Origin: Rhizobacter sp.
GTDB lineage: Bacteria; Pseudomonadota; Gammaproteobacteria; Burkholderiales; Burkholderiaceae_C
Direction: 5' to 3'
NCBI GenBank assembly: GCA_017986065.1
Contig: JAGNWJ010000012.1
Span: 8,830 to 48,555 of the forward strand
DNA: 39,726 bases
Part shown: piece after piece, positions 1-11,223 of the stretch
Position numbering within the stretch: the first letter of the stretch is position 1
How the letters are laid out: each line of letters begins with the position of its first letter
Notes under the pieces: model-generated
Database searches by the model: none
Told to the model about the DNA's origin: nothing
Seen by the model: the letters and a program-made list of their open reading frames with translations, nothing else
Position numbers and translations under genes: made by a program

Positions 1-920
1 TTCCAGCCGAACGGTTCGTGGCGTGGCGAGGGCACCCGCGCATGGCGCCAGCGATGCGCGGTCGAGAACTGCGGAACTGCGGGATTCACGCCGCAGTGCT
101 GCCCGAAGGCGGCCAGCAGCGCCGCCATCACATCGGCAGGCGCCGCCTCCAGGTGCTCTCGGGTCCAGGCTGGTGTGGCGTGCAGAACCCAGCGGCAGCC
201 GATGCCAGCGACCTCGGTGCGGCCCGTTCGGCCGTCGTCGCGCGTTGCCAGGGCCAGGGTGCCGCCTGGATCGGCGCATCGATACACCGCCTCGGAGACC
301 GGCCATGGGGCGGACCACGCTGCCATCACCGTCCAGCACGGGTCGCTTGGGGTCTGGCGCATCGCATCGGATAGCGCCGCATCCAGATTCAGCAAGACGG
401 CAGCTTGTTCGGCCGGGACGGCGACCACGACGGCGTCGAAGCGGGCCGGCTCGAGAGCCCCGTTCAGCAGCCGCAGACGCCAGCCACCGTGGCCAGCAGC
501 CGCCTCGGCGTCGCCGGGTGCGGGCTCGACGGCTGCGACCTGGGTGTCGGGTCGCCATTCCGCTCCCTCCGGCAAATGGGCTGCAAGCTGTCGAGCAAGC
601 GAATTCATCGACGGCACACCGAATGCGCACGAGGGCGCCGCTGGAGCGCTGCTGGCCTCGCCTTCAATGGCCACCCACCCGCTGTCTCGCCAGCGCGCGA
701 CCTGTGCTCGAAATGAATCTGTCGTTGCCGTGAATCCGGGTGCCCCGTGGTCGAAGGCACCGGCCTCGCTGCGACGGGTCGCGCAACGCCCGCCAGCCCC
801 GCGGCTCTTCTCGAACAGAGTCACTGACCAGCCGCCTGCCAGCAGCCCGCTCGCAGCGGTGAGGCCGGCGATGCCCGCGCCGATCACGGCGACGCGCTTC
901 ATCGGGGTGCTCGCGCTCAC
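1..920 (-). CDS. Renalase-like FAD-dependent oxidoreductase (3' end outside the window)
   Basis: The reverse strand reads openly from about position 920 to the left edge without a stop. The product begins MSASTPMKRVAVIGAGIAGL: a Rossmann FAD-binding fingerprint (GAGIAG), an acidic residue ending the second strand (LFEKS), and the motif GAGGRCATRR typical of renalase/amine-oxidase-like flavoproteins. About 306 codons are present. The GTG at 918-920 overlaps the TGA of the upstream NTF2-like gene (GTGA), which suggests translational coupling; an ATG six codons further in (900-902) is the alternative start. It is the last visible gene of a long minus-strand operon and the second FAD enzyme in it. 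Substrate unknown; a redox step on lipids is an inference from context only. Confidence 0.85.
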   Translation of the reverse strand, partial: MSASTPMKRVAVIGAGIAGLTAASGLLAGGWSVTLFEKSRGAGGRCATRRSEAGAFDHGAPGFTATTDSFRAQVARWRDSGWVAIEGEASSAPAAPSCAFGVPSMNSLARQLAAHLPEGAEWRPDTQVAAVEPAPGDAEAAAGHGGWRLRLLNGALEPARFDAVVVAVPAEQAAVLLNLDAALSDAMRQTPSDPCWTVMAAWSAPWPVSEAVYRCADPGGTLALATRDDGRTGRTEVAGIGCRWVLHATPAWTREHLEAAPADVMAALLAAFGQHCGVNPAVPQFSTAHRWRHARVPSPRHEPFGW

Positions 921-1369
921 GAATTCGCCCGCCGCTTCAGCCAGCGCATCAGCGCGCCGACAGCGGGCAATTTCTCGTACAGCTCTTCCGCCACATCCCA
1001 GTAGTCGCGGTGCAGCGTGATCAGCCCCTCCGCATCGAGTTTCAGGTGCGAGGCGCCGCGCACGGTCTGCAAGTCGCTGCGGAAGCGCCGGAATCGAAAC
1101 AGGAAGTCCCAGGTCAGCACACACTGATCGCCCTGAACGATCACGTCGTGGATCACGAAGCGAGGTGCCTCGAGGGCCACGTACATGTGGGTGAAGACCT
1201 GCTGGATCGCCGGCACCCCGCGCACCTCGTTGAACGGGTCCTTGAACGCCGCATCCATCGCATAGAAGTCGCCAAGCCGCGCCACATCGGCCGGCGTCAG
1301 CGTCTCGAAGGCCTCGATGATGCGTGCGACGCGCGGATCGGCGCTGCGCGCGATGGGTCCGGGCTTCAT
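917..1369 (-). CDS. NTF2-like / SnoaL-like protein
   Basis: A 150-residue protein with the size and pattern of the NTF2/SnoaL cone fold: an N-terminal helix pair (VARIIEAFETLTPADVARLGDFYAMDA), a KDPFNEVRG turn, then alternating beta strands (FVIHDVIVQGDQCVLTWDFLF). Members are either small enzymes or binding proteins, and the sequence alone does not say which. It lies 9 bp downstream of the SDR gene and overlaps the following flavoprotein gene by 4 bp, so it is very probably co-translated with them. SDR plus NTF2-like pairs recur beside CFA-synthase-like genes in LitR- or ChrR-linked loci of other proteobacteria (from memory). Exact role unknown. Confidence 0.8.
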   Translation of the reverse strand: MKPGPIARSADPRVARIIEAFETLTPADVARLGDFYAMDAAFKDPFNEVRGVPAIQQVFTHMYVALEAPRFVIHDVIVQGDQCVLTWDFLFRFRRFRSDLQTVRGASHLKLDAEGLITLHRDYWDVAEELYEKLPAVGALMRWLKRRANS

Positions 1370-1378
1370 CGGAAACGC

Positions 1379-2152
1379 CTACAACCCGGTGAAGCGCCGG
1401 ATCACGCGGAAGTACAGGCCGTCGCCGACGTGGCGCAGGGCCTTCAGGACGCGAGTGAACCGCTTCGGGAAGTGGATCTCGAAGCGTCCCGCGGCCCAAC
1501 CCGCCAGCATCTCGCGCGCAGCCTCCTCGGGCTGGATCAGTGCCGGCATCTTGAACTCGTTGCGCGCGGTCAGTGGCGTCGCGACGAAGCCCGGGCAGAT
1601 CACCGACACCCCGATGCCCAGCGGATGCAGATCGAGGTAGAGCGTCTGCGCGAGGTTGATCAGTGCCGCCTTCGTCGGGCCATAGGCCAGCGAGTTCGGC
1701 AGGCCGCGGTACCCCGCGACGCTCGACACCAGGCTCAGATGCCCCGACTTCTGGCGGATCAGCACAGGCAGCACCGCGTCCAGCAGGTAGAGCGCGCCGA
1801 CATAGTTGACGCTCTCGTGACGCAGCATTTCGTCGAGGTCGTAACTGCTGGCGCGCATCGGCGCGTAGTGGCCAGCGCAGTACAGCGCGAAATCAATGCG
1901 GCCGCAGCGGGCGACGATGCGCTCGGCGGCCTGCTTCATCGCATCCCGGTCGGTGGCGTCGAGGGCGATTCCCAGGCTGCCTGGATGGCTGGACTCGAAG
2001 GCTTCGACCGCAGCCGCATTGCGTGCCGAGACGACGACGGTGGCTCCGCGGTCGTGCAGTTGCCGGGCAGTCGCCAGGCCGATGCCGCTGGAGGCGCCGA
2101 CCAGCCAGACCACGCATCCGGTCCAGTCGCTGATGCGGGGATTCAGTGCCAT
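1379..2152 (-). CDS. SDR-family NAD(P)-dependent oxidoreductase
   Basis: A 257-residue classical short-chain dehydrogenase. The cofactor motif VGASSGIGLA lies near residue 18, and the catalytic Ser and YxxxK follow in LVSSVAGYRGLPNSLAYGPTKAA. The later CPGFVATPLT matches the usual PG motif. A basic, aromatic tail (KRFTRVLKALRHVGDGLYFRVIRRF) suggests membrane association. It starts at ATG 2150-2152, 109 bp after the DUF3833 gene, the widest gap in the operon, so an internal promoter is possible. Fatty-acyl or lipid carbonyl reduction is plausible from the neighbours but not shown by sequence. Confidence 0.88.
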   Translation of the reverse strand: MALNPRISDWTGCVVWLVGASSGIGLATARQLHDRGATVVVSARNAAAVEAFESSHPGSLGIALDATDRDAMKQAAERIVARCGRIDFALYCAGHYAPMRASSYDLDEMLRHESVNYVGALYLLDAVLPVLIRQKSGHLSLVSSVAGYRGLPNSLAYGPTKAALINLAQTLYLDLHPLGIGVSVICPGFVATPLTARNEFKMPALIQPEEAAREMLAGWAAGRFEIHFPKRFTRVLKALRHVGDGLYFRVIRRFTGL

Positions 2153-2261
2153 GGCATCGCACCGACCGACCGGGATGCCGACCGCCCCTCAGGACGCGAC
2201 GGGACTGGCCGGAGGCAGTCCGGCACAGCGCCCCACGAAGATTGATCCGCCTGAACCGGTC

Positions 2262-2795
2262 TCATGGCTTGTGGAACGCCAGAGTGACTTCACCCAGACG
2301 CACGCCGAACTTGCTCATCACCGCCTTGTTCAGCATCACACGCTCGTCCACCAGGTACATCCAGTCATCGAACTGCACCTCGTAGGTCTTGGCATCGACC
2401 GGCAGTCGCAGCGTGTAGCTCCACTGGAAGGCATTGCCCGAGCTGCGTCCCTGTGCCGTGCCGACCACGTCGTCGGCGGTGCCGGTGTACTGACCACCGG
2501 GCAGCTTCTTCAGCCGCCACACGCGCTGCTGCTTCTCGCCGTCGCTGTAGACGAAGCGCTCGTCGAGCACACCGTCGTCGCCCTGCCAGCTGCAGGCCAT
2601 TTCCACCGTGAACCTGCGCACGACCTTGCCAGAGCGGTCGGTGAAGATGCCGTGCGCGGTGAGGTTTCCGTTGAAGTAGGCCTTCAGGTCGAGAACCGGC
2701 TTCTCGTTCGCGTAGTCGGCGGGGCTCGGCGATGCGCAGGCGGCCAGCAAGGCGGTGGCAGCGGCTGTCGCAGCCAGGATCGAACGTCGATTCAT
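2262..2795 (-). CDS. DUF3833-type lipoprotein
   Basis: A 177-residue protein whose N-terminus (MNRRSILAATAAATALLAACAS) is a lipoprotein signal with a lipobox (LAAC), so it should be lipid-anchored in the envelope. The remainder is beta-rich, with YFNGNLTAHGIFTDRSGKVV and DDWMYLVDERVMLNKAVMSKFG, typical of the uncharacterised DUF3833 family. Its ATG (2793-2795) overlaps the TGA of the transporter gene (ATGA). Fatty-acid-modification operons often carry this family beside a CFA-like enzyme; a lipocalin-like lipid-handling role is a guess. A much longer frame running in from upstream belongs to another reading of the transporter gene. Confidence 0.82.
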   Translation of the reverse strand: MNRRSILAATAAATALLAACASPSPADYANEKPVLDLKAYFNGNLTAHGIFTDRSGKVVRRFTVEMACSWQGDDGVLDERFVYSDGEKQQRVWRLKKLPGGQYTGTADDVVGTAQGRSSGNAFQWSYTLRLPVDAKTYEVQFDDWMYLVDERVMLNKAVMSKFGVRLGEVTLAFHKP

Positions 2796-4156
2796 TGCGG
2801 TTCCCGAAGGTTTCGTATCAGAAGGGTGTGCAGCAGTGCGGCCGCACCCAGCTTGAGCAGGCAGGGCAGCATGCAGTAGGCGGTGGTCAGTGCCGCCAGC
2901 GCCTGGGGGCTGCGGCTGCCCGGTTCGTACCCGAACCAGGCCAGGGCAGGCAGCGCGACTCCGGCGGCCAGCGCGAGATTGAGCTTTGTCGCGAAATTCC
3001 ACCAGCCGAAGTAGGCTCCTTCGGCCTGTTCCCCGTGTCCCGCGCGCTGGATCACGCCTGCGAGGATCGCACTCGGCAGCGTCAGGTCTGCGCCCAGTGC
3101 GACGCCGCTGAGCGCGCACACCGCGGTGTAGGCCAGCACGTCGCCGGCGCCCAGCAACGTCGCCCAGCTGAACACAGCGATCGTCAGCCCCATGCCCAGC
3201 AGCCAGGCGCGCTCCAGGCCGACCCAGCGCACCGCACGCACCCACAGTGGAATCGACAGCGCGCCGGCGGCAAAGTAGCTGGCGAGAAAGAGCGGCTCGT
3301 AGGCCGGGGCCTGCAGTCGATCGCGGATGAAGAACAGCACCAGCGTTGCCGGCACGGCGCTGGCGATCCCGTTGACGAGATACACCGCCAGCAGGCGGCG
3401 GAAGGCGGGCGTGGAAAAGGGCAGGAGCATCGGCACGTGGGCTGCAACCACCGCCGATGCCGCTGGCTGCGGTGCGGTGCGCAGGCACAGCACTGCGAAG
3501 AACAGCAATGCGGCCAGCACGCCGACCGTTACCGCCAGACCCGCGACCGACGGCAGCACGCTTGCGACCAGCACGCCAGCCAGCGCCAGACCCTCGCGCC
3601 AGGCCACGATGCGAGCCCGTTGAGGCGCGTCGCCACCCAGTCTGGCCCCCCACGACTGATGGATGACGGAGACCCCGCTGTACCCGAGGTAGGTCACCGC
3701 GAGCGCCAGCGCGCACCAGACCAGCAGCGAGGAGCGGTCCTCGACCGGAGGAAAGAACAGTGCGGCGAATCCGATGGCGAGCACCAGGGCAGCCATCGCG
3801 ATGGCCCACCAGGCGCGCCGTGCGCCGCCTGCCAGCAGTCGGTCGGCGGCGCGGCCGATCAACGGGTCGGCAACCGCATCCAGTGCGCGCGCGCCCAGCA
3901 GCACCGCGCCCAGCGTGGCCAGCGGGATGCCGAACTCGCGTGCGTAATGGTCGGGCAACACGATGTAGAGCGGCAGCGCGACGAAGGCCAGCGGCAGACC
4001 GAGTGCGCCATAGCGCACGCCCGGGCGCCAGCCGGCCATTCCAGGGCCGTCACGCGCCATGCCGTCGGGCTCGGTTGCTGCCGCGGTGGACGGGTGCTTG
4101 GACAAGTCGGCGCCCGGGATGACGCGCTGCAGGGCCATCGACGACGGCCCGGTCAC
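2792..4156 (-). CDS. MFS_2 / GPH-type membrane transporter
   Basis: A 454-residue polytopic membrane protein with about 12 hydrophobic segments. The first half carries the signature ALDAVADPLIGRAADRLLAGG, typical of the glycoside-pentoside-hexuronide cation symporter branch (MFS_2). MFS_2 also includes lipid transporters, so a lipid or lysophospholipid cargo is possible here; the sequence does not identify it. I chose the GTG at 4154-4156 because it overlaps the TGA of the chalcone-isomerase-like gene (GTGA); ATG codons a little inside are alternatives. It is translationally coupled on both sides, so it belongs to the same pathway. Confidence 0.85.
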   Translation of the reverse strand: MTGPSSMALQRVIPGADLSKHPSTAAATEPDGMARDGPGMAGWRPGVRYGALGLPLAFVALPLYIVLPDHYAREFGIPLATLGAVLLGARALDAVADPLIGRAADRLLAGGARRAWWAIAMAALVLAIGFAALFFPPVEDRSSLLVWCALALAVTYLGYSGVSVIHQSWGARLGGDAPQRARIVAWREGLALAGVLVASVLPSVAGLAVTVGVLAALLFFAVLCLRTAPQPAASAVVAAHVPMLLPFSTPAFRRLLAVYLVNGIASAVPATLVLFFIRDRLQAPAYEPLFLASYFAAGALSIPLWVRAVRWVGLERAWLLGMGLTIAVFSWATLLGAGDVLAYTAVCALSGVALGADLTLPSAILAGVIQRAGHGEQAEGAYFGWWNFATKLNLALAAGVALPALAWFGYEPGSRSPQALAALTTAYCMLPCLLKLGAAALLHTLLIRNLREPQ

Positions 4157-4743
4157 GATCCGGTGCGGACGCCCGCCAGCAACGCCTCACGCAACCGGGG
4201 TTCGGAGGTTCGCTTCGACAGCCAGATGCCGAAGAACAGGCGCGTGAACTCGGCGTCGCGGATTTCCCCCGTCAATTTGCCATTGACGAAGTAGCGCGCG
4301 GCGACACCCGGGACCTGTATGCCCGTGACGCGGTCGCCCTCGGCGACGTCGGGGATCGACTGCTTCATCGCCGCCAGCCATCGAGTCGCCTTCGCGGGAT
4401 CGATGGCTCCGCTGCGCTCCATCTCTTCGATCGATCGCGCGGCGATCTCGGTGCTTTCGAAGCTGCGTGCGTACTCGAGCTCCAGGGCCAGTGGGGCCTG
4501 GTCGAAGTTTTCGGCGTCGAACTGCGGGCCGGTCCACAGCCGCGCGTCGTAGACGTGGAACAGCAGGAATTTCATCCGGCCGCTGCCATGCAGCCGCGCT
4601 CCCGGCAGCTCGCTGCGCACTTCGGGCGGCGGTGACAGGGCGGCGCGTGCGACAGCCAGCACGCTCGCCGGCACGCAGCCGATGGCCAGTGGGAGCGCCA
4701 GCAGCGATCGTCGGGTGCGATCGATCAGGTCCGGCTGGCGCAT
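4153..4743 (-). CDS. Chalcone-isomerase-like protein with export signal
   Basis: A 196-residue protein. After a basic N-terminus and hydrophobic stretch (RRSLLALPLAIGCVPASVLAVARA, an export or twin-arginine-like signal) it shows the bacterial chalcone-isomerase-like fold pattern: GSGRMKFLLFHVYDARLWTG, then LELEYARSF and a C-terminal YFVNGKLTGEIRDAEFTRLFFGIWL. Plant enzymes close flavanone rings and some relatives bind fatty acids; bacterial members like this one have no settled function. The ATG is one base after the stop of the CFA-like gene. Binding or processing a modified acyl chain in the periplasm is a reasonable inference from that position. Confidence 0.82.
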   Translation of the reverse strand: MRQPDLIDRTRRSLLALPLAIGCVPASVLAVARAALSPPPEVRSELPGARLHGSGRMKFLLFHVYDARLWTGPQFDAENFDQAPLALELEYARSFESTEIAARSIEEMERSGAIDPAKATRWLAAMKQSIPDVAEGDRVTGIQVPGVAARYFVNGKLTGEIRDAEFTRLFFGIWLSKRTSEPRLREALLAGVRTGS

Positions 4744-4744
4744 G

Positions 4745-5989
4745 TCAGTCTCGCTGCAGCGTGAACTGCATGACGTTGGTGTTGCCTGCCTCGAAGGCTG
4801 CCTCGCAGTACGCGAGATAGAACTCCCAGATTCGCATGAAGCGGCTGTCGAAACCAAGCCGGCGAACCGGCCCCTCCTGACTCAGGAAGCGTTGCCGCCA
4901 GCGCAACAGTGTTTCCGCGTAATCGAGCCCGAACTCCAGCTCATTGACCACTCGCAGGCCTGCGCGCGCGGCGGCCTTGCGGAATTCGGCCGGACTGGGC
5001 AGCAGTCCGCCCGGGAAGATGTACTGCTGGATGAAGTCGGTCGAACCGACGTAGCGGTCGAACAGGTCGTCGCGGATGACGATGCTCTGCACGCACGCCT
5101 TGCCACCCTGCTTGAGCTGCGAGTTCAAGGTCTCGAAGAAGCTGGGCCAGTACTCGCGCCCGACTGCCTCGAACATCTCGATGGAGGCGACCGCATCGAA
5201 TGGACCGGCGCTGCCGTCGGCCAGGTCCCGGTAGTCCTGGAAGCGCAGGTCGCCGGGCAGTCCTGCATCGGCCAGGCGCTTGCACGCCCACTCGAGCTGT
5301 TCGCTCGATAACGTCACGCCGGTGACCGTGGCCCCGAAGTCGCGCGCGGCGCATTCGGCCAGCGAGCCCCAGCCGCAGCCAATCTCGAGCACGCGGTCTC
5401 CCGGCTTCACGTCGCATTCGGTCAATGCTCGCCGCACCTTGGCCCACTGCGCTTCTTCCATCGGACGGGTGCGGTCTCCCTCGAACCAGGCGCTCGAATA
5501 GTTCATCGTCGGGTCGAGCCACAGCCGGTAGAACTCGTTGCCGAGGTCGTAATGCGCGTGGATGTTCTTCTTGCTGCCGGATCGCGAATTTCGATTCAGC
5601 CAGTGCCTGAAGCGGTACAGCAGCGAGCCCCACCAGGTGCCGTAGACCAGGGACTCGACCTCCGATCCATTGGCGAGCATCAGCCGGATCAGCATGGCCG
5701 GATCGGGCGAGGTCCAGTCGCCGGCGATGTAGGTTTCGGCGAAACCGATGTCTCCGGAGCGCATCGTCGCACCGCAGACGTTCCAGTTCAGCAGCCGCAT
5801 CGCAGCCCGCATTCCGCCGTCGACCGCCGAGCCGAAATGCAGACCCGTGCCATCGGGCAGCTGGATGTCCAGCGTGCCGTGCTTCAGGTTCTTCAACAGG
5901 CGGAATACCGCGCGGGCGGCCGCTGGTGCCGACGCCGGCAGGGCGCCAGGTGACAGGGTGGTGGTGTGCATCGCGTCGAGTTGGGACAT
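4745..5989 (-). CDS. CFA-synthase-family SAM methyltransferase acting on unsaturated phospholipid acyl chains
   Basis: A 414-residue member of the cyclopropane-fatty-acyl-phospholipid synthase family. SAM motif I is LEIGCGWGSL (201-210); the family motifs YDLGNEFY, EMFEAVG and QQYIFPGGLLPSP follow. Compared from memory with E. coli Cfa, two residues that hold the catalytic bicarbonate differ: the Cys in YSCGYW is Ser166 here, and the His in LLHTI is Gln301 (CVQSI). Glu274, Ile303 and Tyr357 are kept. This suggests a methyltransferase that does not close a cyclopropane, such as the UfaM type that starts furan fatty acid synthesis. The start at 5989 has no clear Shine-Dalgarno sequence; ATG 5971 is an alternative. 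Confidence 0.9.
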   Translation of the reverse strand: MSQLDAMHTTTLSPGALPASAPAAARAVFRLLKNLKHGTLDIQLPDGTGLHFGSAVDGGMRAAMRLLNWNVCGATMRSGDIGFAETYIAGDWTSPDPAMLIRLMLANGSEVESLVYGTWWGSLLYRFRHWLNRNSRSGSKKNIHAHYDLGNEFYRLWLDPTMNYSSAWFEGDRTRPMEEAQWAKVRRALTECDVKPGDRVLEIGCGWGSLAECAARDFGATVTGVTLSSEQLEWACKRLADAGLPGDLRFQDYRDLADGSAGPFDAVASIEMFEAVGREYWPSFFETLNSQLKQGGKACVQSIVIRDDLFDRYVGSTDFIQQYIFPGGLLPSPAEFRKAAARAGLRVVNELEFGLDYAETLLRWRQRFLSQEGPVRRLGFDSRFMRIWEFYLAYCEAAFEAGNTNVMQFTLQRD

Positions 5990-6026
5990 GCCAGCGAGAG
6001 CGGGAAAGTGGAAGTTCGACGCGCGG

Positions 6027-6842
6027 TCAGCGCGTCACGAAACCGATCGGGGGCTCGGGCTTGCGGAAGAACGGGACCCGCTTCAACCACAGCCGGGCGG
6101 CCTGCAGATGGATGCGACCGATCACGCCGAGAGTCATCAGTGGCATGCCGAAGAACGCGCGCCGCAAGCTGCGGCTGGTCAGCGGCAGCAGATCGCCGGA
6201 CACGCTGGTCTGGATCAGCGCACCCTCCGCATCGTCGTGGTCGATGCGCGCGACCGTGCGCGTCAGCTGCATGTTTCCCGCTGGATCGGCCATCGGCGCT
6301 CTGCCGTGCATGAAGCGGAACCGGTAAAGACCGGCCACCGAGCAGAACGGCGACACGTGGAACACCTTGGTCGCCACTTGCTCCCTGCCGTAGGCGAGCT
6401 GCGAGCCATGCAGCAGGTAGCAGTGCCGCTCGCCAAAGGTGTTGTTGACCTCGACCACGACCGCGGCCAGCGTGTTGTCCGCCCGGTGGCAGTACCAGAA
6501 GCTGACGGGCTTGAAGGTGTGCCCCAGCACCCGTGGGTAGCAATGCAGCCAGACCTCACCGCCGGCATCCGTGATGCCCTCGCTGCACAGCAACTCGTCG
6601 AGCCAGGCGAGGCTGTCGGCACGACCATCACCGTGGTCGCTGTCGTGGAAGCTGATCAATCCGAAGCGGTTGCGCGCCAGATCGGCGTGAGGTGCGTCGC
6701 GCAGACGACGCATCGGAAGCATCAGGAAATAGGTGGGATAAGCGAAGCGGTTGACGGCCGGTCGAAGCCGGGTGTGGCGCACCTGACCGAATCCGATCAG
6801 TGGACCGGAACGCTGCGTCGAGGGCGGGGCTGCGGCACTCAT
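6027..6842 (-). CDS. DUF1365 family protein
   Basis: A 271-residue DUF1365 protein. The hallmarks are the start GQVRHTRLRPAVNRFAYPTYFLML, then SWPVSFWYCH-like VLGHTFKPVSFWYCHRADN, VVEVNNTFGERHCYLL, and KVFHVSPFC followed by YRFRF. It is almost always encoded between an FAD amine-oxidase-like gene and a CFA-like gene, as here, and is taken to work with them on membrane fatty acids. The biochemical activity is not established to my knowledge. Its ATG overlaps the TGA of the upstream oxidoreductase gene (ATGA), so the two are coupled; the CFA-like gene follows after 37 bp. Confidence 0.9.
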   Translation of the reverse strand: MSAAAPPSTQRSGPLIGFGQVRHTRLRPAVNRFAYPTYFLMLPMRRLRDAPHADLARNRFGLISFHDSDHGDGRADSLAWLDELLCSEGITDAGGEVWLHCYPRVLGHTFKPVSFWYCHRADNTLAAVVVEVNNTFGERHCYLLHGSQLAYGREQVATKVFHVSPFCSVAGLYRFRFMHGRAPMADPAGNMQLTRTVARIDHDDAEGALIQTSVSGDLLPLTSRSLRRAFFGMPLMTLGVIGRIHLQAARLWLKRVPFFRKPEPPIGFVTR

Positions 6843-8152
6843 GCGGCCACCGGCACCGGGCGGGTGGCCGTCTCGGCCCAGCGCTTGCGCAAACCATCCA
6901 CGACGCCGATCCCCGACATCAGGCCGTCCTCGTGAAAGCCGTAACGCGTCCAGGCGCCACAGAACCAGGTGTTCCCCACGCCCTGAAGCAGTGGCACCCG
7001 CTGCTGCGCAGCGATCGCGTCAGCGTCGAAAACCGGGTGGGCATAGTCGTACACCCCATGGACAGTGTCGGCGCGCGGCTCGTTGACAGGATTGAGGGAG
7101 ACCACCACGGGGGTCTTGAACGGCAGTGGCTGCAGCCGGTTGATCAGGTAGTGCAGGCAGACCGCCGTCGCTTCGCGCGAATCGGCTCGGGCGCGTTCAT
7201 AGTTCCACGCCGCCCAGGCGATCTTCCGGCTCGGCAGCACCGAAGTGTCGGTGTGCAGCACCGCGCGATTGCGGTGGTAACGGATGGAGCCCAGCACTTC
7301 ACGCTCGTCGGGCGTGGCATCGGCCAGCAGCGCCAGCGACTGATCGCTGTGGCAGGCCAGCACGACGTCGTCGAACAACTCGCTTCCTCTGTCGGTGCCG
7401 ATGCTCACCTGGCCTGTGGTGCGCATCCGTCGCACGCTGCGCACCGGCGTGTTCAACCGCGCATCGGGGACGCGGCTGACGAGCTTCGCCACGTAGTGGC
7501 GGGCGCCGCCGCGCACGGTGTACCAGCGCGGCCGGCTCGTCACCTGGATCAAACCGTGGTTGTGGCAGAACCGGATCATCGTGGCGATCGGAAAGCGCAG
7601 CATCTGATCGGTCGGACAGGACCAGATGCAGCCGATCATCGGCAGGAAATACCAATCCCGGAATTCCGCGCTGAAGCGATGCTCGGCCAGGAATTCGCCA
7701 ATGGGCTGCTGCTGCTCGGCTTCTTCCCCGCGCACGGCCAACGTGGTGGCCAGACGATTGAAGCGTGTCAGATCGCGCAGCATGCGCCAGAAAGCCGGTC
7801 GGAGCAGGTTGGCGCGCTGCGCGAAGACGCTGTTGAGGTCGCTCCCGCTCCACTCCAGGCCGATGTCCGGCACCTGCACCGAGAACGACATATCGGAGAG
7901 CGCGGTGGGAACCTGCAGCTCGCCGAACAGCCTGATCAGGTTCGGGTAGGTGCGCTCGTTGAACACGAGAAATCCGGTGTCGACTCCGTGCGTGATCCCG
8001 TCAAGGGTCACATCGACGGTGTGGGTGTGGCCGCCGAAGTAGCTCCCCGCCTCGTACAAGGTGACCCTTGCGTCGGGCGCGAGGGCATGAGCCACCGACA
8101 AGCCCGAGATGCCCGAGCCGATGACCGCGACGCTGCGCACGTGATCAGGCAT
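6839..8152 (-). CDS. FAD/NAD(P)-binding amine-oxidase-like protein, first gene of the lipid operon
   Basis: A 437-residue flavoprotein beginning MPDHVRSVAVIGSGISGLSVA: FAD fingerprint GSGISG, then EAGSYFGGHTHTVDVTLDGI, the GGH(T) pattern of the amine oxidase/cyclopropane-fatty-acid-associated oxidoreductases. The C-terminal FAD motif is GVGNTWFCGAWTRYGFHEDGLMSG. Homologous genes accompany CFA and DUF1365 genes in photo-oxidative-stress regulons; one enzyme of furan fatty acid synthesis is a flavin-type desaturase or oxygenase, but I do not assign which protein here plays that part. I chose ATG 8150-8152 because it directly precedes the FAD motif. A 400-bp leader lies upstream. Confidence 0.9.
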   Translation of the reverse strand: MPDHVRSVAVIGSGISGLSVAHALAPDARVTLYEAGSYFGGHTHTVDVTLDGITHGVDTGFLVFNERTYPNLIRLFGELQVPTALSDMSFSVQVPDIGLEWSGSDLNSVFAQRANLLRPAFWRMLRDLTRFNRLATTLAVRGEEAEQQQPIGEFLAEHRFSAEFRDWYFLPMIGCIWSCPTDQMLRFPIATMIRFCHNHGLIQVTSRPRWYTVRGGARHYVAKLVSRVPDARLNTPVRSVRRMRTTGQVSIGTDRGSELFDDVVLACHSDQSLALLADATPDEREVLGSIRYHRNRAVLHTDTSVLPSRKIAWAAWNYERARADSREATAVCLHYLINRLQPLPFKTPVVVSLNPVNEPRADTVHGVYDYAHPVFDADAIAAQQRVPLLQGVGNTWFCGAWTRYGFHEDGLMSGIGVVDGLRKRWAETATRPVPVAA

Positions 8153-8426
8153 GTGCGTCCGGCACCTGCCGAATCGTCGGCTCGACCGGGAAGAAAGAAG
8201 CTGCACAGCGCCCGGCAGGGCAAAACGAAGGGAGGAGGCAAAGAAAATACCGCCACCAGGATTGTGTCGGCGAGACCGACGAGCTGTGCAACGCTAAACC
8301 GTGGGTCGGGTCATTGGTCCGCCGGTGTCGCGCAGATCCGGGGGTTCTGTTCCGGTTGCTGGACGCCTGACTCGCCATGTCACTCGACCCTGCGTAGACA
8401 TCCGATCGAAACGAGAGTTCCCCCGG

Positions 8427-8469
8427 GTCCATTCCTGGAAGCAGCCGTCCCGTGTCTTCGGGAATGGAC
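8427..8469. repeat. Long imperfect hairpin in the operon leader
   Basis: GTCCATTCC (8427-8435) is perfectly inverted at 8461-8469 (GGAATGGAC). Inside this, GAAG (8438-8441) pairs with CTTC (8456-8459) across a small bulge, leaving a loop of 14 nt. No T-tract follows on either strand, so it is not a classical terminator. Confidence 0.6.
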
Positions 8470-8482
8470 GCACAGCTCGCAA

Positions 8483-8510
8483 ATTCTTGGACTCTTACCA
8501 TATGGTTCAA
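8483..8510 (-). promoter_or_regulatory. Candidate promoter of the lipid operon, overlapped by a palindrome
   Basis: On the minus strand a -35-like TTGAAC (8505-8510) is followed after 16 bp by a -10-like AAGAAT (8483-8488). The perfect palindrome ACCATATGGT (8497-8506) overlaps the -35 and spacer, a good place for a repressor. It sits in the only AT-rich patch of the intergenic region. Binding by the LitR/CarH protein encoded at 9294 is an inference; the site does not match the TGTACA-type boxes I know for that family. Confidence 0.35.
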
Positions 8511-8553
8511 AATATAACTGCTCGGTATGGGTCGCGCTGCGTGCTGCTGTATT

Positions 8554-9144
8554 TCACTGCGCCACCAGCAGCTTTTCAATGCCTTCGACAAACGCCTTGT
8601 CGTCGGGTTCGACATCGCTGCTGAAGCTCTGCACCGTGGAGCCGTCGCGTCCGATCAGGTATTTGTGGAAGTTCCAGCGAGGCAGGGTGCCGGTGCGCTG
8701 CCGCAACTCGGCGTAAAGCGGGCTCAAAGCCGCTCCGGCGGACTGTGACACGCGAGTCTTGGTGAACATGGGGAACTTGACCCCGAAGGTGTTTGCGCAG
8801 AACGTCGCGATCTCCTGGTTGCTGCCAGGCTCCTGGCCGCCGAAATCGTTCGACGGGAAGCCCAGCACCACCAGGCCGCGGTCCCGGTAGCGGGCATGAA
8901 GCGATTCCAGTCCCTTGTACTGTGAGGTGAAGCCGCAGTAGCTGGCGGTATTGACGACGACGACGACCTTGCCGGCGTACTGGCACAGGTTCTGTGGCTT
9001 CTCGTCCTGAAGTCTCGGCAACTCGCGGTTGAGCAGGGTGCCGCATTCCGCCGCTTGTGCTCCGGAAGCGCAGGCGAATAACAGCAGTGCGGCCGCACAA
9101 GGCATCCTTGCAAAGTCGATGAGCTGAGCAGTTGATATGTCCAT
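8554..9144 (-). CDS. Exported glutathione-peroxidase-family peroxidase
   Basis: A 196-residue thiol peroxidase of the glutathione peroxidase family. The peroxidatic Cys70 lies in NTASYCGFTSQY (cysteine, not selenocysteine), followed by FPSNDFGGQEPGS and WNFHKYLIGRDG, the standard motifs. Before the domain there is a hydrophobic segment ending in AQA (residues 14-31), so export to the periplasm is likely. It would reduce hydroperoxides, including lipid hydroperoxides, probably using thioredoxin-like reductants as Cys-type members do. I chose ATG 9142-9144; an ATG at residue 14 and a TTG at 9189 are possible. It is divergent from the litR-like gene and lies upstream of the lipid operon on the same strand; peroxidases of this family belong to light-induced sets in some bacteria. 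Confidence 0.88.
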   Translation of the reverse strand: MDISTAQLIDFARMPCAAALLLFACASGAQAAECGTLLNRELPRLQDEKPQNLCQYAGKVVVVVNTASYCGFTSQYKGLESLHARYRDRGLVVLGFPSNDFGGQEPGSNQEIATFCANTFGVKFPMFTKTRVSQSAGAALSPLYAELRQRTGTLPRWNFHKYLIGRDGSTVQSFSSDVEPDDKAFVEGIEKLLVAQ

Positions 9145-9164
9145 ATCCTGTCTTGGGCAAAAAA

Positions 9165-9187
9165 TTGTCAAAGCCGTATATTGACGC
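9165..9187. promoter_or_regulatory. Candidate operator/promoter dyad between the peroxidase and litR-like genes
   Basis: GTCAA (9167-9171) and TTGAC (9181-9185) form a small inverted repeat in an AT-rich patch of the 149-bp divergent region. The minus-strand reading gives a perfect -35 hexamer TTGACA (9166-9171) facing the peroxidase gene, and TTGACG (9181-9186) faces litR. Matching -10 boxes are weak on both strands, as expected for promoters needing an activator or special sigma factor. Confidence 0.3.
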
Positions 9188-9293
9188 AAATCGAATCACC
9201 TGTCCTGCACCATCACATGCCTGCTCACGACCAGACATTGCTCGCCTTCGTCGATTACCCCGAGCCCGGCAAACTCGCGGATCATCTGCCGCG

Positions 9294-10232
9294 ATGAATG
9301 AACCCGCGCGCTCGCTGAAATCGCTCACGCTGTCGATCGCCGCGGCCGAGCGCGACACCGGCCTGACCAAGGACACCCTGCGCGTGTGGGAGCGCCGTTA
9401 CGGGTTCCCCCGGCCCGATCGCGATGGCGGTGGCGAGCGTGCCTATCCGCTCGAACAGGTCGAGAAGCTGCGCGTCGTCAAGCGACTCATGGACGCGGGG
9501 CATCGGCCTGGCCGGCTGGTGTCGATGCCGATCGAGGAACTGGTCCGGTTGAGTGAGAGCACCGGCGATGCGCCTCGGCGATCGGCCGGAGGCGGCCCGC
9601 TCCTCGATCTGAAGGCCTGCCTGGCCCTGATGCGTTCCCACGATGTCGATGCGCTCCGTCGCCAGCTGCTGCAGACGCAGATGCGGATGGGGCTCGCGCG
9701 CTTCGTCATCGAAGTGGTGATGCCCCTGAACACGATGGTCGGCGACGCCTGGATGCGCGGCCAGATGGAAATCTTCGAGGAACACGCCTACATCGAATGC
9801 CTGCATGGGTTGCTGCGCCAGGCTCTCGCCGGCCTGCCGGAGGCTGCACCGCTCGACCGCCCCCGCGTGCTCCTGACGACCCTGCCCGGGGAGCCCCATG
9901 GCCTGGGCCTGTTGCTCGCCCAGGCGCTTCTGGCGCTGGAAGGTGCCCGCGTGGTCTCGCTGGGCGTGCAGACCCCTGTGTGGGACATCTCGCTGGCAGC
10001 CGCAGCGCACCGCAGCGACATCGTCGCGCTGGGTTTCACCGGGTGCATGAACCCCAATCAGGTCGTCGACGGACTGAGCGAACTGCGCAGCAAGCTGCCG
10101 CCAGCGGTCGAACTGTGGGTTGGCGGCTCGGCGCCGGTGCTGCACCGCCGCACGGTCGATGGGGTGATGGCGTTTTCGTCTCTCGAGGACATCCGGCCAC
10201 AGATCGAGCGCTGGCGGCACGGCAGCGGCTGA
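9294..10232 (+). CDS. litR: LitR/CarH-type MerR regulator with adenosylcobalamin-binding light-sensing domain
   Basis: A 312-residue regulator. Residues about 10-80 are a MerR winged helix (TKDTLRVWERRYGFPRPDRD.GERAY, the usual recognition region). Residues about 105-185 form the helical cap with W153-x9-E163-H164, the CarH motif that covers the upper face of B12. Residues about 190-305 are the B12 Rossmann domain with E200-x-H202-x-x-G205, where H202 would be the lower axial ligand, and a late VGGSAP loop. In the known family the dark AdoCbl tetramer represses and light breaks the Co-C bond. ATG 9294 is the first Met directly before the DNA-binding domain. It diverges from the peroxidase gene and lies beside the lipid operon, its likely target. 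Confidence 0.85.
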   Translation: MNEPARSLKSLTLSIAAAERDTGLTKDTLRVWERRYGFPRPDRDGGGERAYPLEQVEKLRVVKRLMDAGHRPGRLVSMPIEELVRLSESTGDAPRRSAGGGPLLDLKACLALMRSHDVDALRRQLLQTQMRMGLARFVIEVVMPLNTMVGDAWMRGQMEIFEEHAYIECLHGLLRQALAGLPEAAPLDRPRVLLTTLPGEPHGLGLLLAQALLALEGARVVSLGVQTPVWDISLAAAAHRSDIVALGFTGCMNPNQVVDGLSELRSKLPPAVELWVGGSAPVLHRRTVDGVMAFSSLEDIRPQIERWRHGSG

Positions 10233-10347
10233 CCAAAGCAGGTGGTTTCCGCCTTGCTCGAATGACCATCGGCCGCGCGCCCTTTCAAGGTGCGGCTGCG
10301 GGTCAACACGTCTAAACTCGTGCTCCCTGGAAAAGGTCGCACCCACC

Positions 10348-11223
10348 ATGTCCACCATGCTCTATCCCGAACTTTTCAAGCAGCTCGAAGCCGTTCGCTG
10401 GAGCATGGACAAGGACATCCCCTGGGACCGCTTCGATGCCAGCCAGTTGAGCGACGAGCAGGCGCAGACCATCAAGATGAACGCGATCACCGAGTGGGCT
10501 GCCCTGCCTGCCACCGAGATGTTCCTGCGAGACAACCGCGGCGACAGCGACTTCTCCGCGTTCATGAGCGTGTGGTTCTTCGAGGAGCAGAAGCACTCGC
10601 TGGTGCTGATGGAGTACCTGCGCCGCTTCCGTCCCGACCTCGTGCCTACCGAAGAAGAGTTGCACGAGGTGCGCTTCGAGTTCGATCCGGCACCGGCGCT
10701 CGAGACGCTGATGATGCATTTCTGCGGAGAGATCCGACTCAATCACTGGTACCGCCGTGCTGCCGAATGGCACGCTGAGCCGGTCATCAAGGCGATCTAT
10801 GAAACGCTGGCGCGCGACGAGGCGCGTCATGGTGGCGCCTATCTGCGCTACATGAAGCGGGCACTGAGCCAGGTCGGTGACGAAGCACGCGTTGCCTTTG
10901 CCAAGGTCGGGGTGCTGATGGCCAGCGCCCGGCGCACCGCACAGGCCTTGCATCCGACCAACCTGCATGTGAATGAAAGCCTGTTCCCGCGCGATACCGT
11001 GCAGAGCCGGCTGCCCGATCCGGTGTGGCTCGAAGCCTGGCTCGATCGGCAGATCTGCTTCGACGCTGAATGGGAAGGCAAGGTGGTCGACCGCATCCTG
11101 CACAACATGAGCCTGCTGATGGAGCGCAGCTTCGCGACCGTGCAGGAGCTCAACCGCTTCCGCAAGGAAGTCGCCGCGTCGATCGCCGCGGCCGCTCAGT
11201 CCGCTGCTGCCTTGCCCGCCTGA
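10348..11223 (+). CDS. Ferritin-like diiron protein, acyl-ACP-desaturase-like
   Basis: A 291-residue helical protein carrying a complete carboxylate-bridged diiron ligand set: Glu49 (ITEW), Glu80-x-x-His83 (EEQKH), Glu128 (CGEIR) and Glu158-x-x-His161 (DEARH). Two ExxH motifs plus two further Glu in this order are what acyl-ACP desaturases and R2-like oxidases use. A desaturase or oxygenase role is therefore plausible, but the substrate cannot be read. GGAAAAGG about 11-18 bases upstream is a possible ribosome binding site for ATG 10348; ATG 10357 is an alternative. It follows litR by 115 bp in the same direction and precedes rfaE2 by 29 bp. Confidence 0.8.
   Translation: MSTMLYPELFKQLEAVRWSMDKDIPWDRFDASQLSDEQAQTIKMNAITEWAALPATEMFLRDNRGDSDFSAFMSVWFFEEQKHSLVLMEYLRRFRPDLVPTEEELHEVRFEFDPAPALETLMMHFCGEIRLNHWYRRAAEWHAEPVIKAIYETLARDEARHGGAYLRYMKRALSQVGDEARVAFAKVGVLMASARRTAQALHPTNLHVNESLFPRDTVQSRLPDPVWLEAWLDRQICFDAEWEGKVVDRILHNMSLLMERSFATVQELNRFRKEVAASIAAAAQSAAALPA

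Follow-up and report, generated by a model that had tools for sequence, protein, structure and literature searches.

What controls a set of lipid genes that lies beside a gene for a regulator resembling B12-type photoreceptors, and what do these genes make? The question is raised by a 39,726-nucleotide stretch of Rhizobacter sp. DNA (the window; bases 8830-48555 of contig C57, in a 3.0-Mb genome of 155 contigs that is 84% complete), in which a nine-gene operon follows a gene for glutathione peroxidase (gpx) and a divergent gene for a LitR/CarH-like MerR regulator (litR). The gene combination is known already, and the new element is a structured RNA that stands before the operon. With a confidence somewhat above even, we favor the reading that the locus is a Ufa-type furan-fatty-acid operon with accessory genes, located beside a class-I-like LitR/CarH repressor and gpx, and with the RNA under a promoter of the extracytoplasmic function (ECF) type. 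Light control and the function of the RNA are what we infer from the DNA sequence.

A structured RNA before the operon

The first-pass annotation of the window placed gpx and litR beside the operon. These neighbors are as described, but gpx, which lies upstream of the operon on the same strand, is separated from it by 401 bp that contain the conserved RNA and a promoter-like site. The features of this part are:

8554-9144, minus strand: glutathione peroxidase (gpx), probably exported (signal-like N-terminus by eye; GSHPx 2.4e-32)
8393-8424, minus strand: ECF-sigma-like promoter GGGGGAACTC-N16-TCTACG (pattern search)
8194-8296, minus strand: structured RNA with closing helix P1 (10 pairs), hairpin P2 and stem P3 with a C-rich loop; probably free-standing in many relatives, here also the putative 5' leader of the operon (alignment, covariation, z -5.69, two models)
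6839-8152, minus strand: amine-oxidase-like flavoprotein (AmOx), UfaD candidate, operon gene 1 (Amino_oxidase 2.5e-15; LkcE structures E 7e-40)

When the gpx-AmOx gaps were aligned, 10 of 14 genus loci shared a conserved block of ~100 nt, in which a 10-bp helix is invariant. At L030, L032, L033 and L034 this gap measures about 62 bp, and gpx and AmOx may form one operon there. Covariation was assessed with 46 of 56 RNA rows, from which near-duplicates had been removed and which were aligned by MAFFT without fitting to the structure. In these sequences 94.4% of the cells were paired, and both partners varied in 16 of 25 pairs; one P1 position alone appears as C-G, A-U, G-C and U-A across members. 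On each of five measures all 500 shuffles, which were not corrected for relatedness, fell short of the real alignment, and slid versions of the structure reached at most 49.4% pairing. Folding z-scores of six members ranged from -2.22 to -5.69, the latter being that of the window RNA. The presence of a structured RNA before the operon is supported by this covariation. Each RNA contains 2-6 copies of CCUCC, with a mean of 4.2 against 0.46 in shuffled sequences.

Rfam 15 gave no match above threshold for the RNA, and a literature search that covered few subscription journals found no description of it. Weak matches under the threshold were rejected (RF02938 at 21.8 bits, ar14 at 16.6 and CcsR1 at 10.0), as were isrD (30.1 against a gathering score of 37) and STnc50 (29.2 against 55) at locus L127, both of which fall on the P1 tail and the next hairpin. 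Identity with RF02278 was also discarded; it has a different locus and model, and when ten RF02278 loci were scored with the second model of the new RNA, none exceeded 18.2 bits. A strong copy of the RF02278 toxic small RNA occurs in the genome of the window at contig C81:7315-7376 (L147). A small open reading frame opposite the RNA (ATG AAA ACC ... after GGAGGAGG) was judged by eye and set aside: the window and L023 are without the ATG, and the minus-strand helices include G-U pairs, which would be mismatches on the other strand. In most genus copies the RNA is followed by another GC-rich hairpin, which ends in CTTTTG (L024 11793-11850); there is no T-run at this place in the window or L023.

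The first RNA model found the element in 181 of 399 family genomes, representing 80 of 141 genera. Of 150 family genomes searched with the second model, 109 carry the element, always as a single copy. An order-wide search with this model under strict filters covered 300 genomes and gave hits in 8, each a member of the family of the window; the number of members of that family among the 300 is not listed. Named loci were searched as well (69 of 80 AmOx loci and 13 others), and the carriers include Caldimonas, Rubrivivax, Ideonella, Acidovorax, Hydrogenophaga, Polaromonas and Curvibacter records.

Fifty-five of the 109 copies lie 16-217 nt upstream of an AmOx match on the same strand. In 27 genomes AmOx is located elsewhere, often as a remoter relative (about 45-49% identical), and another 27 have no AmOx in the list of matches, for which 114 genomes were used and 16 weak rows (E 2e-37 or weaker) were dropped, G385 having only such a row. 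Downstream genes were counted at 50 of the 54 loci without adjacent AmOx, using matches among 17 query proteins. The nearest downstream match is convergent in 43 of these (31 GST-like, 12 CorA-like), a same-strand short-chain dehydrogenase (SDR) in 1 and absent in 6; the nearest upstream gene is gpx in 11 and a ferritin-like gene in 11. The gene names GST, PurB and CorA at RNA loci are presumed ones. Because 43 of 50 non-operon loci have a convergent nearest downstream gene, the data fit an RNA that is free-standing at such loci, with the operon behind the RNA gene in half of the hosts.

The sequence GGAAC occurs within 140 nt upstream of the RNA in 61 of 65 rows; the opposite strand has it in 11 of 65, and shuffled sequences give a mean of 7.7 (maximum 18). 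This row set counts at least three genomes twice (G404, G303, G310). When one mismatch was allowed, a search of 15 genomes for the genus form GGGGAACTC-N17-CTACA gave 11 places, of which 9 are upstream of the RNA, and the reversed pattern gave 5. The GGAACT(C/T) site resembles promoters of RpoE-type ECF sigma factors; a Shewanella rpoH site is listed for comparison (PMC4336711; this and the other papers are cited from excerpts).

The lipid operon and its candidate product

The operon genes run in one direction from 8152 down to 3 and are overlapping or closely spaced. A run of N just before the start of the window cuts off the last gene. The genes following AmOx are:

6027-6842, minus strand: DUF1365 protein, UfaO candidate (PF07103 2.1e-75)
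4745-5989, minus strand: cyclopropane-fatty-acid-synthase (CFA)-like methyltransferase, UfaM candidate (CMAS 1.1e-79)
4153-4743, minus strand: chalcone-isomerase-like protein (Chalcone_3 3.4e-13)
2792-4156, minus strand: MFS_2 (GPH-like) transporter (PF13347 8.1e-50)
2262-2795, minus strand: DUF3833 protein (PF12915 5.9e-73)
1379-2152, minus strand: SDR (adh_short 9.6e-39)
917-1369, minus strand: SnoaL/NTF2-like protein (SnoaL_2 3.7e-16)
3-902, minus strand: renalase-like FAD protein, cut by the window edge (NAD_binding_8 7.3e-12, Amino_oxidase 2.9e-11)

All nine gene families assigned in the first-pass annotation were confirmed by Pfam. Gene-order conservation beside LitR, which it had suggested as a check, was found in 13 of 13 genus relatives over the part covered by their contigs (15 genomes were sampled, including that of the window). 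An order shared by the window and 13 relatives is not a chance arrangement. In one relative DUF3833 is present in two pieces, apparently due to a frameshift (L027 16825-17341). Of the fetched DUF3833 loci of the class, 15 out of 20 also contain AmOx, DUF1365 and CMAS. Kindred operons exist in many Burkholderiales, and relatives of the Chalcone_3 and MFS_2 proteins are common in them. Among 80 named AmOx loci, 24 have a MerR gene with both B12 motifs and 12 a MerR gene without them; in the other 44 no MerR gene was present in the available stretch, some of these being short contigs. The earlier view that the full combination is special was not borne out, given the same order in the genus, the kindred operons and the published counterparts discussed below.

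Furan fatty acids are thought to act as sacrificial scavengers and second messengers under singlet-oxygen stress. By Pfam family, the flavoprotein, DUF1365 and CFA-like genes of the operon fit UfaD (which we take to be amine-oxidase-like), UfaO and UfaM. In the published pathway UfaM methylates cis-vaccenate, UfaD desaturates the product and UfaO, a DUF1365 protein, forms the furan (PMC7380195). Because the three genes fit these enzymes, the operon probably makes a furan or branched fatty acid. The unusual lipid suggested at first has the UfaM, UfaD and UfaO families behind it, and would come from a known kind of pathway. The DUF1365 gene is the only match to this family in the genome, 84% of which is covered, and a PDB search with its protein gave no match.

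The regulator, its palindrome and neighboring genes

Upstream of gpx the following features were found:

9147-9161, no strand: LitR-operator-like palindrome TTTGCCCAAGACAGG, 4 mismatches to TTTGTCCTAGACAAA (pattern search)
9154-9182, plus strand: sigma70-like promoter of litR, TGGGCA-N17-TATATT (1 found, shuffle mean 0.3)
9294-10232, plus strand: LitR/CarH-like MerR regulator, litR (MerR_1, B12-binding_2 and B12-binding)
10348-11223, plus strand: ferritin-like diiron protein (FA_desaturase_2 7.6e-09; acyl-ACP desaturase 1za0 E 0.0016)

The described divergence of litR from an exported-looking glutathione peroxidase was confirmed, the signal-like N-terminus being judged by eye; the start of gpx is uncertain, its reading frame being open to 9189. 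LitR of the window matches the Thermus CarH structure 5c8d over residues 12-251 with E 1.1e-24. The Pfam scores for MerR_1 (48.1) and B12-binding_2 (28.7) are above the cut-offs, but B12-binding (24.8 bits against 32.1) and the NCBIfam CarH equivalog (112.5 against 400) are below; together with the structural match, we take the MerR helix-turn-helix and both B12-binding domains to be present. Both motifs are present, Wx9EH as W153, E163 and H164 and ExHxxG as E200, H202 and G205, and the downstream GG is also kept. The initial statement that every visible light-sensing residue is in place holds for these six, but the SxT/V segment of the B12 motif reads GFT and the position of Thermus CarH His132, directly after the Trp, is Met, both in the window and in 13 of 13 genus relatives. 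Among 29 homologues scoring >200, 2 have neither motif. The assignment as a CarH/LitR-type regulator with B12 domains is supported by these comparisons, and B12 binding is likely.

In the light-exposed state of Thermus CarH, His132 is the upper cobalt ligand. A His after the Trp is present in many, but not all, CarH homologues (PMC9304148). The H132A variant of Thermus CarH is mostly tetrameric in light, with an earlier report of disassembly cited in the same paper (PMC10442372). A LitR clade lacking His132 would make it possible to test whether B12 photoreceptors depend on bis-His ligation.

The palindrome TTTGTCCTAGACAAA occurs with at most 3 mismatches upstream of litR in 27 of 42 loci, compared to 0 in shuffled sequences, and in 0 of 65 rows upstream of the RNA. 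Eight of 25 named loci with a B12-motif regulator have litR directly divergent from AmOx (gap <400 bp). In these taxa LitR probably controls the operon directly, because 7 of the 8 carry the palindrome, again with at most 3 mismatches; in the window such direct control seems less likely. Pairs of the tandem 11-bp CarH repeat nnnnTnnACAn were found in the 42 litR upstream regions 4 times without mismatch (0.1 expected) and 17 times with 1 mismatch (4.5 expected). In the window a triple 11-bp repeat gave no good fit, with 4 of 12 positions mismatched; the 15-bp palindrome fits better.

The gene island was correctly described as to families and order, but the diiron gene at 10348-11223, inside its stated span, had been left undescribed. 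An AurF match of this gene is below the Pfam cut-off. The ferritin-like protein is the most conserved of the region, with about 90-96% identity in the genus, and in many relatives its gene still adjoins the RNA, gpx or litR. Where the locus is complete, a further gene (L024 8082-9764), which we take to be photolyase-related and which occurs in 12 of 15 genus genomes, separates litR from the ferritin-like gene, a place that corresponds to 10232-10348 of the window; the genus search gave no match in G007, G008 or the genome of the window, the latter 84% complete. The rest of the window (11253-39726), listed as open reading frames, includes genes that are presumably rfaE2-like, glnE-like and others.

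Proposed mechanism, alternatives and known systems

In the mechanism that we propose, adenosylcobalamin-bound LitR would sit on the palindrome in the dark and hold down litR and gpx, and light would release it. An envelope-stress-like ECF sigma factor would transcribe the RNA. Most transcripts would end at P1 and the U-run, giving a small RNA whose CCUCC-repeat loop may pair with ribosome-binding sites of other mRNAs, and part of the polymerases, together with those coming from gpx, would continue into the operon. Lipid remodelling and RNA-mediated repression would rise together under photo-oxidative or envelope stress. The CFA-like enzyme would methylate an unsaturated acyl chain, the flavoprotein would desaturate it and the DUF1365 protein would close the furan, with accessory roles for the transporter, DUF3833, SDR, SnoaL and Chalcone_3 proteins.

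A wider proposal, which we hold tentatively and place a little short of an even chance, is that the RNA belongs to a family of small RNAs not described before, from Comamonadaceae/Rubrivivax-type Burkholderiales. A GGAACT-type ECF sigma factor would drive it, and it would fold on itself into three helices with a long CCUCC-repeat loop. Under stress it would be induced and repress translation; in roughly every second host it would also be the transcribed leader of a furan-fatty-acid operon beside a His132-less LitR, so that one promoter would switch on both lipid remodelling and RNA-mediated repression. Many relatives keep the RNA gene even without the furan-lipid operon. If it is a stress-induced small RNA, it would tie lipid remodelling to post-transcriptional control, in a way that can be tested, in bacteria that are abundant in fresh water and soil, and it would add a new structured RNA family for annotation.

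Several observations weigh against an ECF-driven RNA beside a light-responsive LitR repressor. No RNA match was found at the four of 14 genus loci with the short gap, covariation within the genus only was not significant, and the lowest-energy fold of the window RNA keeps P1 and P2 with a different P3. At the promoter, TC follows GGAACT after 15-18 nt in 57 of 61 cases, a count for which six offsets were tried without a control. At the 3' end, at least 5 T in 8 nt follow P1 in only 44 of 65 rows, and a terminator scan, which is blind to a loop this large, gave none at the RNA. The palindrome was read from the same litR upstream regions in which it was later counted, the window copy has 4 mismatches, a level at which 1.0 of 42 is expected, and upstream of the RNA there is a slight excess of copies with 4 mismatches (6 of 65 rows against 1.8 expected), so that LitR may act there as well. 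A Thermus-type light switch in the window LitR appears doubtful because the His132 equivalent is Met in the window and genus and was never His in 27 further homologues with both motifs.

On a model in line with the first-pass annotation, LitR would work as a photoreceptor of the CarH B12 type and would by itself directly repress the whole operon, a light-induced pathway for placing an unusual lipid. The B12-domain regulator indeed carries Wx9EH and ExHxxG, the palindrome is present in nearly all loci where litR diverges from AmOx, and at the four RNA-less genus loci one promoter region may serve all genes across the short gap. Yet in the window the palindrome stands between litR and gpx and not before the operon, which has an ECF-type site and RNA of its own, and the His132 position is Met; for the window we regard control by LitR alone as rather unlikely. 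Alternatively, the RNA may act in cis on the operon, as an attenuator or riboswitch, and not in trans as a small RNA. This would agree with the 55 of 109 copies placed just before AmOx and with a P1 followed by T-rich sequence that could terminate transcription. However, 54 copies are not beside AmOx, 43 of 50 face a convergent gene, and no second, mutually exclusive structure was seen, a systematic search not having been made; we consider this account unlikely. As to the product, a cyclopropane or other methylated chain instead of a furan would agree with the methyltransferase being a CFA/CMAS family member that matches structures of CFA synthases. Against this, its gene stands with DUF1365, the domain shown in UfaO (PMC7380195), and the protein scores 251.7, 239.1 and 212.5 against NCBIfam CFA-synthase equivalog cut-offs of 600, 400 and 650, respectively. 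These scores are far below the cut-offs, and we regard such a product as quite improbable.

CcsR-type RNAs are stress-induced. The Betaproteobacteria toxic small RNA RF02278, CcsR/'cuckoo' RF02791 and ar14 RF02344 have C-rich anti-Shine-Dalgarno stretches as found in the window RNA, whereas the latter has a different structure and no Rfam match above threshold. RF02278 is among the related C-rich RNAs already known (PMC5688073, PMC4603805, PMC11722255). With CarH of Thermus and Myxococcales the window LitR has in common the MerR, four-helix and B12 Rossmann domains and both motifs; it differs by Met for His132 and GFT for SxT, and no carotenoid genes were seen in the part of the window that was read.

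Known furan-fatty-acid operons are switched by ChrR or LOV/LitR systems. ChrR/ECF11 control was rejected for the window, as the sole Cupin_7 match above cut-off (C25, in the 84% complete genome) has no sigma gene in the 3.3 kb seen. The literature search found no class I LitR with a furan operon within the journals covered. In Shewanella, SO_3386-3374 (phrB, cfa) and an exported glutathione peroxidase are under RpoE2-ChrR (PMC4336711), the periplasmic enzyme being PgpD. A cfa operon and an exported glutathione peroxidase are shared with the window, where gpx and operon are instead neighbors beside a LitR and the promoter motif is different. V. cholerae responds to blue light by way of a MerR and ChrR (PMC5241685). 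In P. mendocina a light-induced operon of nine co-transcribed genes, among them ufaM and genes for an SDR and an FAD oxidoreductase, lies beside pmlR1, with 25-33 fold light induction of ufaM (PMC9758184). As in the window, pmlR1/pplR1 of P. mendocina/P. putida are LitR genes adjoining an operon with ufaM, SDR and FAD oxidoreductase; in the excerpts these class II LitR proteins are without B12 motifs and answer to a short LOV protein, the operon includes phrB and the operator is TGTACA-N12-TGTACA.

Furan-fatty-acid genes belong to the core ECF11 regulon (PMC6852236), and the window site is of the GGAACT type rather than the TGATC type of sigmaE-ChrR (ECF11). The stress-controlled ufaM and RSP1091-1087 of R. 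sphaeroides, from the sigmaE-ChrR regulon, have in common with the window the AmOx-like, DUF1365 and CFA-like partners. RSP1091-1087 form a five-gene operon, the last three genes of which encode 402, 186 and 245 aa, lengths matching the transporter, DUF3833 and SDR proteins; this likening is by length and by the order AmOx-DUF1365-MFS_2-DUF3833-SDR in Rhodovulum strictum (L218). In the excerpted report, deletion of RSP1089, 1088 or 1087 left the fatty-acid profile unchanged (PMC7380195). Compared to R. sphaeroides, the window operon has the CFA-like gene inside it and includes Chalcone_3, SnoaL and renalase-like genes in addition.

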